64,000 nucleotides of DNA, from the NCBI RefSeq assembly GCF_024158125.1, contig NZ_JAMZFT010000001.1:186001-250000 (forward strand). Reading direction: 5' to 3'. Each line of letters opens with the position of its first letter. Position 1 is the stretch's first letter. This stretch comes from Futiania mangrovi. Its GTDB lineage: Bacteria > Pseudomonadota > Alphaproteobacteria > Futianiales > Futianiaceae. Under the pieces are notes generated by a model that did no database searches, had not been told where the DNA came from, and saw nothing but the letters and a program-made list of their open reading frames with translations. Made by a program: the position numbers and the translations under genes. This document shows, piece by piece, positions 23,316 through 25,932 of this stretch.

Positions 23316-24710
23316 TCAGGCGCCGGGACCGATCATCTTCTCGGGGCGCACGACCTCGTCGAACTCCGCTTCCGTGACGAAGCCGAGGCGCAGCGCCTCC
23401 TCCTTCAGCGTGGTGCCGCGCTTGTGCGCTTCCTTCGCCACCTTCGTCGCATTGTCGTAGCCGATCTTGGGCGCGAGCGCGGTGACCAGCATCAGCGACC
23501 GCTCCATCAGCACGCGGATGTTGTCGCGATTGGCCTCGATGCCCACGACGCAATTGTCGGTGAAGGCACGCGCGGCGTCCCCGATCAGGCGGATCGACTG
23601 CAGCAGATTGTAGATCATCACCGGCTTGTAGACGTTCAGCTCGAAATGTCCCTGGCTGCCGGCGACCGTGACGGCGGTGTGGTTGCCGAACACCTGGCAG
23701 CAGACCTGCGTCAGCGCCTCGCACTGGGTCGGGTTGACCTTGCCCGGCATGATGGACGAACCGGGCTCGTTCTCCGGCAGCGACAACTCGCCCAGGCCCG
23801 AGCGCGGGCCCGAGCCCAGCAGGCGGATGTCGTTGGCGATCTTGAAGAGCGAGGCGGCGACCGTGTTCACCGCGCCAGACATGTCGACGACCGCGTCGTG
23901 GGCGGCCAGCGCCTCGAACTTGTTCTCCGCCGTGCGGAACGCATAGCCCGTGATCTTCGCGATCTCGGCGGCGATCTTCTCGGCGAAGCCGACGGGCGCG
24001 TTGAGGCCGGTGCCGACCGCCGTGCCGCCCTGAGCGAGCGCCAGGAGGCCGTCGAGCGACCGCTCGATGCGCGCAATGCCATAGGCGACCTGGGTGGCAT
24101 AGCCGCCGAATTCCTGCTCCAGCGTCAGGGGGGTTGCGTCCTGCGTATGCGTGCGGCCGATCTTGATGATGCCGGCGAAGGACTTCGCCTTCTCCTCCAG
24201 CGCCGCGTGCAGGTGCTTCAGGCCGGGAATGAGGCGGTCATGGATCTCCATCACGGCCGCGACGTGCATGGCCGTGGGGAAGGTGTCGTTCGACGATTGC
24301 GCCCGGTTCACATGGTCATTGGGATGAACTGGCGACTTGGTGCCGAGCGTGCCGCCCATGATCTCGATCGCACGGTTCGAGATGACCTCGTTCGCGTTCA
24401 TGTTCGACTGGGTGCCCGATCCCGTCTGCCAGACGACCAGCGGGAAATTGTCGTCGAGCTTGCCGTCGATCACCTCCTGCGCGGCAGCATCGATGGCCTT
24501 GGCGACGTCGCCGTCGAGATTGCCGAGCGCGGCATTGGTGCGCGCGGCGGCCTGCTTGATGACGCCCAGTGCGCGCACGACCGGGATCGGCATCCGCTCG
24601 CCGCCGATCGGGAAGTTCTGGATCGACCGCTGCGTCTGTGCGCCCCAGTACTTGTCGGCCGGGACGTCGATGCCGCCAAAGCTGTCGGTTTCGGTGCGGG
24701 TGCTGCTCAT
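23316..24710 (-). CDS. fumC: class II fumarate hydratase FumC
   Basis: Iron-independent TCA-cycle enzyme that interconverts fumarate and malate, active as a homotetramer. The 464-residue length is normal. The superfamily signature [11 protein letters not shown] with the catalytic Ser loop is present, as are the substrate-site motifs [24 protein letters not shown] and [10 protein letters not shown]. It lies 126 bp downstream of sspB on the same strand, with the ribbon-helix-helix gene following. No iron-dependent class I fumarase is seen in the window. Confidence 0.97.
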
Positions 24711-24836: not shown

Positions 24837-25328
24837 TCAGGTCTTCTTGCGGAACTGGTCGAGGCTGATGACCTCGCCGCGTGCATCCTCGCCCGTCTCC
24901 GCAGGTGCCGGGCTTGCGTCCGGGTTTTCCTGCGCGCTCCCTGCCGGAGAGACCGGCGCCTCCGGCGCGCAGGGCACGGCGACGGTGAATTGCAGGCCGA
25001 ACTTCACGCTCGGATCGTAGAAATGCATGATCGAGGAGAACGGGATCGTCAGGCGTGCCGGCACCGAGTTGAAGTTCAGCGTGACGGAGAAGGCGTTCTC
25101 GCCCACCTCCAGATCCCAGAACTCGTGCTGCAGGACGATCGTCAGCTCGTCGGGAAACCGCTCGCGCAGGTGGGCCGGCATGTCGACGCCGGGCACGCCC
25201 GTTGCGTAGGTGATGTAGAAATGATGCTCGCCCGGCAGGCCGTCCTCGGCCACCTCGCGCAATGCGTGGCGCACGACGCCGAGCATGGCGTCCTGAACCA
25301 TTCTGTCGTAGCGCAACCGGTCACTCAT
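24837..25328 (-). CDS. sspB: alpha-type SspB, ClpXP adaptor for ssrA-tagged proteins
   Basis: 163-residue homologue of the SspB adaptor that binds ssrA-tagged substrates and hands them to ClpXP. The SspB fold region spans about residues 15-125 (HHFYITYATGVPGV, LTIVLQHEFWDLEV and FSVTLNFNSVPARLTIPFSSI). A disordered, Pro/Ala/Glu-rich linker follows, and the C-terminal tail VISLDQFRKKT is the ClpX-docking type. The start MSDRLRYD has AGGAA seven bases upstream; an ATG ten codons earlier is less likely. The tmRNA gene that makes its substrates lies about 160 bp upstream on the same strand. Confidence 0.9.
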   Translation of the reverse strand: MSDRLRYDRMVQDAMLGVVRHALREVAEDGLPGEHHFYITYATGVPGVDMPAHLRERFPDELTIVLQHEFWDLEVGENAFSVTLNFNSVPARLTIPFSSIMHFYDPSVKFGLQFTVAVPCAPEAPVSPAGSAQENPDASPAPAETGEDARGEVISLDQFRKKT

Positions 25329-25488
25329 GCTGCATTCCTGAACGCGGGAGACGATCACCCCTCATGCCCGAGGCACCATATCCGCGCAGCGGCTGCGTGA
25401 AAAGGCGCGCTGCACGGATCGGCTGAAAAAGCCGGAGCAGCGCCAGGACGGGCGCCGGGAGAGGCAAAAACGAAGGGAGAGGGGAAGT

Positions 25489-25816
25489 GGAGGGCTTCTG
25501 TTGCCAGGCGCCCTCCGGACCCCGCCACGGCTTGTGCAAGCCGTGGACTTTAGGAGTGGATCACTCCGGCTGCATTACGCAGCCATCGCCATCCGTGCAC
25601 GATTGTTGTCATTCGCAACTGTGCTTACGGCCCGATAACGGCGGAACCATGCCGGGCGAAAGATGCGTCTTTACACGTCCGTCGATCCTGGTTCGCCCCC
25701 ATCAGAAGCCCGCGAAGCAACACGTTCGCGGGCTTGTGGTGGAGGCGCCGGGTACTGCCCCCGGGTCCGGTCCGCTTATTCCACGCCCCGTTTATCGCCA
25801 TAGCCGGATGCCTCCG
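25489..25816 (-). ncRNA. ssrA: two-piece (circularly permuted) tmRNA
   Basis: Reading the minus strand, the acceptor piece ends with CGCCTCCACCA, its CCA terminus at 25737. After a 36-base intervening loop with a perfect GCCCGCGAA/TTCGCGGGC hairpin, the coding piece begins at 25700 with GGGGGCGAACCAGGATCGAC. GGGGGCG pairs with CGCCTCC to make the acceptor stem. The tag frame starts with GCG at 25616 and ends at TAA 25577-25575: ANDNNRARMAMAA, giving AANDNNRARMAMAA after the charged Ala. The T-arm is non-canonical (GGGGGCAGTACCC). The outer ends are estimates: the 5' end from the promoter position, the 3' end from a hairpin at 25489-25516. Confidence 0.93.
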
Positions 25817-25824
25817 GCACACCC

Positions 25825-25853
25825 TATATAGGCGGGATCGGCCGCCAGTTGAA
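25825..25853 (-). promoter_or_regulatory. Putative ssrA promoter
   Basis: On the minus strand TTCAAC (25853-25848) and TATATA (25830-25825) are separated by 17 bases and would start transcription near 25816, just before the acceptor piece. The -35 match is weak. The divergent thyA gene starts at 25933. Confidence 0.45.
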
Positions 25854-25932
25854 GAGGGCGCGCGCGGTTCGGCTTTGACCGGGGGCGCGACGATGCCGAC
25901 AATGGCGGCGGGCCAGCGATGGGGAATCGGCG

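Follow-up and report, generated by a model that had tools for sequence, protein, structure and literature searches.

Tag charge and SspB charge co-vary across Alphaproteobacteria: a two-piece tmRNA gene of Futiania mangrovi and its neighbor sspB

Across Alphaproteobacteria, the charge of the first residue after the ANDN start of the tmRNA-encoded tag was found to be opposite to the summed charge at two positions of the proteolytic adaptor SspB (r = -0.601, n = 188), and none of 2000 simulations of independent evolution along the SspB tree reached this value. Judged from these alignments, we consider it fairly probable that tag and adaptor co-evolve by charge in this class, the first post-ANDN residue being mirrored by residues 69 and 88 of SspB. 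The analysis started from a window of 64,000 nucleotides of the Futiania mangrovi genome, in which the first-pass annotation had noted a two-piece tmRNA gene (ssrA) with an unusual tag. For this locus we regard it as likely that a working two-piece tmRNA is present, that its tag is read by the SspB encoded next to it and that a basic tag residue is balanced by Glu69 of this adaptor. The RNA itself is routine; what merits follow-up is the linkage of ssrA and sspB together with the charge co-variation. The features of the locus are as follows.

25825 to 25854, minus strand: promoter-like element of ssrA, CTTCAA (25854-25849), 18 nt, TATATA (25830-25825), recognized by sequence and aligning with CUU.../UAUAUU, which is conserved where RF01849 begins
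25737 to 25820, minus strand: tmRNA acceptor piece, ending in an encoded CCA (25739-25737), 5′ end approximate; from the RF01849 alignment and the acceptor stem
25701 to 25736, minus strand: 36-nt intervening segment, presumably removed from the precursor, its hairpin extending the acceptor stem; from the fold and the length range of 157 loci
25486 to 25700, minus strand: tmRNA coding piece, 5′ GGGGGCG, 3′ end approximate, as in RF01849; from the RF01849 alignment and the acceptor stem
25575 to 25616, minus strand: tag reading frame GCG...GCG TAA (codons 25616-25578, stop TAA 25577-25575) encoding ANDNNRARMAMAA; from the RF01849 alignment and the sequence
24837 to 25328, minus strand: sspB, ClpXP adaptor for tmRNA tags, alternative GTG start at 25358, Glu69 and Ser88 at the co-varying sites; PF04386, single genomic copy, 2QAS, 2QAZ and 2NYS matched by sequence and fold
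23316 to 24710, minus strand: fumarase class II gene, next downstream and outside the system; PF00206 and PF10415
25933 to 26727, plus strand: thymidylate synthase gene, divergent from ssrA; PF00303

The sspB gene, which the first-pass annotation had overlooked, follows ssrA on the same strand, its start lying 157 nt downstream. Its product matches the PF04386 profile with 145.5 bits (threshold 27) and has the fold of the family, and a search of the whole genome revealed one gene each for SmpB, SspB and the ClpX zinc domain. Linkage to ssrA was scored with an SspB profile built here, within the 1.5-2 kb fetched around each locus (less at contig ends). In 122 of the 157 alphaproteobacterial loci listed, and in 49 of 62 when one locus per family was counted, sspB was found downstream of ssrA on the same strand; among the sspB genes found at the 157 listed loci, none was upstream or on the opposite strand. 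Tags could be identified in 21 out of 29 SspB loci. No terminator was found between ssrA and sspB; transcription of ssrA may read through into sspB. Conserved flanking genes of alphaproteobacterial tmRNA genes had already been described in 2007, with a functional link deemed uncertain as smpB is distant, and the word sspB is absent from that study (PMC2245857). No earlier report of an ssrA-sspB linkage or of a co-evolution of tag and SspB was found among the matches listed in searches of an open-licence library.

For the analysis of co-variation, 188 pairs of tag and SspB were used, in which the aligned columns 67 and 86 correspond to residues 69 and 88 of the SspB encoded in the window. Eight of the 196 pairs were left out, their tags not starting with AN[DN][ND]; three of these have Glu at column 67 and Asp at column 86, and one has Glu at both. 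Among basic tags, the net charge of the two SspB columns was -1 in 16 of 23 cases, zero in five and positive in two; among acidic tags it was +1 or +2 in 39 of 52, zero in 11 and negative in two. The co-variation is stronger at residue 88 than at residue 69, and columns 67 and 86 form the best of all column pairs. Only the first residue after ANDN shows such a link, since the other tag positions tested had none to columns 67 or 86. The rule is also not a by-product of gene adjacency, because it also holds for pairs whose sspB was not found next to ssrA, with positive SspB sites in 8/8 cases with acidic tags and negative ones in 3/3 with basic tags. As a separate observation, four genomes of one family (f23: L220, L223, L224, L225) have Trp at column 67 and Asp at column 86 of SspB, with sspB at least 2 kb away from ssrA.

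It is conceivable that the variable tag residues drift neutrally, SspB reading only ANDN and ClpX only the last AA, and Glu69 of the window SspB being unrelated to the tag. The residues following ANDN indeed vary widely among the 157 listed loci, and one genome with Glu at residue 69 carries an acidic tag (L141). Descent was accounted for by 2000 simulations of independent evolution on a tree of SspB itself, along which the charge of the tag is inferred to have changed about 45 times. In none of them were the observed values reached, whether columns 86 and 67 were taken singly or summed, or the best single column among 57 or the best among all pairs of columns was taken; the last is the relevant null, since the sum of columns 67 and 86 was chosen after the held-out result described below. 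When the simulated rate was cut fourfold, column 86 and the sum were still reached in 0 of 1000 simulations, and the best of all columns reached the column-86 value 0, 19 and 19 times per 1000 for all, the first and the held-out sets, respectively. Across 40 pairs of tips independent by descent, column 86 showed about 15 changes opposite to the tag and two with it, and the sum of both columns about 18 versus two; column 67 (residue 69) alone gave eight versus two, which is not significant.

A prediction was moreover fixed before further genomes were fetched. In these held-out genomes, the part concerning residue 69 alone failed (Glu or Asp in 1/10 genomes with basic tags versus 3/64 others, p = 0.45), which is what neutral drift would lead one to expect. 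Column 86 (residue 88), however, passed against acidic tags (16/20 versus 13/54, p = 2.4e-5, a value that ignores descent), and it again ranked first, of 50 columns, with r = -0.574. Given that column 86 and the pair exceed the simulations over all columns and pairs, purely neutral drift appears rather unlikely, and we favor a co-evolution of tag and adaptor by charge.

The SspB encoded in the window retains the consensus in 34 of 38 conserved columns, as judged from the first 122 SspBs aligned. One of its four departures is column 67 (residue 69), where Gln is usual (104/122) and Glu, as in the window, is found in 11/122; nearly all genomes with Glu in this column have a basic tag residue at, or right after, the position following ANDN. 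The C-terminus EVISLDQFRKK, a putative ClpX-binding tail, resembles SVVSLDAFRKK of 2NYS, and a strict motif for such a tail is present in 48 of the 122 SspBs. A predicted model of the protein has a mean pLDDT of 76.5, with 85-95 for most of the folded core and less than 55 for the tail. In this model, the strand 61-66 is directly followed by residue 69, and the turn joining the strands 79-86 and 89-96 contains residue 88. A structure search matched the model to 2NYS and 2QAS with an rmsd of 1.1-1.4, and to 2QAZ as well. With about 50% identity, these alphaproteobacterial proteins (2QAS and 2QAZ from Caulobacter crescentus, 2NYS from Agrobacterium) are close to the window SspB, which differs from the alphaproteobacterial SspBs in having Glu at residue 69. 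The key papers on SspB of C. crescentus are reportedly those of Lessner and of Chien, both from 2007. The gamma-proteobacterial SspB-ssrA complexes 1OX9, 1OU8 and 8ET3 share the fold, with a weaker match (E-values of roughly 1e-4 to 1e-3 at some 16% identity), and the gamma-proteobacterial tag AANDENYALAA differs from the one in the window. A mapping of columns 67 and 86 onto tag-contact mutants of Escherichia coli SspB, such as R73Q (PMC12774585; PMC8993538), gave no sure residue correspondence and is not used as evidence.

In the window itself, the tag begins with ANDN-N-R-A-R and faces Glu69 and Ser88, a net charge of -1. It counts against a charge balance here that the strict charge score of this tag is neutral, since ANDN is directly followed by Asn and the Arg comes one position later. 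When the first charge within the two residues after ANDN is counted instead, SspB has a net charge of -1 for 23 of 36 basic tags (the window included), zero for ten and a positive charge for three. Three relatives with the tag ANDNNRYALAA also speak against it, having Gln at column 67 and Asp, Asp and Asn at column 86. On the basis of the class-wide co-variation and of a net charge of -1 facing a basic tag, the tag of the window is probably matched to its adaptor and not impaired, although our confidence in this single pair is moderate. Glu69 would then be in direct contact with the tag Arg.

The encoded tag is ANDNNRARMAMAA, which together with one further Ala from the charged RNA gives AANDNNRARMAMAA. 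It was compared at the level of the class, as the window genome is the sole member of its genus, family and order among the genomes compared; a match was obtained in 352 of 385 genomes, and tags were counted in 157 loci, nearly all of the matches listed, a sample that is biased to high scores because it was drawn from these. In this sample, 149 tags start with AND[ND], and the endings are LAA (90), VAA (39), MAA (9), AAA (9), IAA (7), QAA (2) and RAA (1), three of the nine MAA tags ending in AMAA. A net charge of at least +1 occurs in five of the 157, at least two Arg or Lys in six, and two Met in the tag of the window alone; of the 149 AND[ND] tags, two have a net charge of +1, namely that of the window and ANDNRAPALKMAA (L082). 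The description of the tag as unusual is thus supported in part; judged by its sequence, the tag lies at the basic end of what Alphaproteobacteria show, yet within that range, and is rare rather than aberrant.

The first-pass annotation had further suggested that this composition may affect recognition by ClpX and SspB, in other words that the tag is a weakened degron. Its rarity, as the only tag with two Met and one of five with a charge of at least +1 among the 157 listed, would fit such a view, but no sign of impairment was seen: the tag retains its terminal AA, SspB, SmpB and ClpX are all present, and the conserved columns of SspB are largely retained. Since endings in MAA are found repeatedly in the class and SspB has a residue opposite in charge to the tag, poor recognition of the tag is set aside as highly improbable.

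Other unusual tags were seen in the class. Seven tags of 20-24 aa contain the ANDN (or SNDN) motif twice (L007, L010, L014, L021, L025, L026, L274), several of them in Micavibrio-type genomes; such tags would perhaps offer two SspB sites each, which would fit a dimeric adaptor. Further tags are very long or aberrant (20-29 aa; L068, L073, L156, L266, L287), some with ANSN instead of ANDN, and both ANSNK tags pair with an SspB that has Glu at column 67 and Asp at column 86. The window genome, from an alphaproteobacterial lineage that stands isolated, lacks genes for photosynthetic reaction centres: no member of the family PF00124 was found in it, which gives no support to a placement with Rhodothalassium, a lone photosynthetic order.

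Regarding the RNA, the covariance model RF01849 (alpha_tmRNA) matched the minus strand end to end from 25857 to 25486 (275.4 bits, gathering threshold 50, E = 1.6e-80, model positions 1-355), as a single copy in the whole 3.39 Mb genome, and the newer model RF04321 (tmRNA_permuted) matched the same locus with 146.3 bits. Both the two-piece tmRNA and the tag frame proposed from the sequence are thereby confirmed, and the proposed extent of 25489-25816 agrees with the transcribed part except for a few bases, the extra 5′ stretch of the model comprising the promoter-like element, which a generic sigma-70 scan did not list. The gene order is permuted, and the acceptor stem pairs GGGGGCG (25700-25694) with CGCCUCC (25747-25741) in 7/7 positions including G3-U70, followed by the discriminator A and the CCA; the frame starts with ANDN and ends with AA and a stop. 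With the same script, a 7/7 stem with G3-U70 was obtained in 155 of the 157 listed loci, the other two probably being mis-picked stems. The intervening segment has a length within the range of these loci, and the region 25689-25760 folds into a strong hairpin (-42.2 kcal/mol, z = -4.77). ARAGORN reported no tmRNA gene at 25486-25857, which could be taken to indicate a decayed copy, but it was also silent at seven of the 56 other loci that RF01849 matches strongly, so that its silence reflects a weakness of the program, and a non-functional copy is in practice refuted by the score of a full-length, single-copy match with intact stem and frame. Where annotation relies on ARAGORN, such missed permuted tmRNA genes will be absent from it (8/57 strong loci).

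The RNA and its mechanism are thus those of an ordinary alphaproteobacterial two-piece tmRNA. The precursor would be transcribed from the TATATA promoter, and the 36-nt hairpin would be cut out of it, leaving two pieces held together by the acceptor stem. Alanyl-tRNA synthetase would charge the tmRNA via G3-U70, and SmpB would deliver it to stalled ribosomes, where ANDNNRARMAMAA would be appended. SspB would then read ANDN together with the residues that directly follow, the basic residue after ANDN-N being balanced by Glu69, and the tagged protein would be passed for degradation to ClpX, which would grip the C-terminal AMAA. The ssrA genes of C. crescentus and Sinorhizobium meliloti (RF01849) are alike in the order of acceptor, intervening and coding segments, the 7-bp stem with G3-U70, the encoded CCA and the ANDN-type tag; the window differs from them by NRARMAM after ANDN and by its strongly paired, G+C-rich intervening hairpin. 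According to the 2007 study, the S. meliloti tmRNA yields RNAs of 82 and 204 nt (PMC2245857).

tmRNA tags differ among species without a clear reason, and the present data show that one variable position tracks two adaptor residues after allowing for descent. This co-variation makes the co-evolution of tag and adaptor directly and cheaply testable by binding, and it supplies a reason for a conserved neighbor of ssrA, the functional meaning of such neighbors having been called uncertain in 2007 (PMC2245857). If tag and SspB co-evolve by charge, lineages would therefore carry their own matched pairs of tag and adaptor, usually side by side as ssrA-sspB. The adaptor-degron pairs of E. coli and C. 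crescentus have been used in parallel as an orthogonal system (PMC8138137). The Alphaproteobacteria may offer a natural supply of degron-adaptor pairs that work independently of one another.
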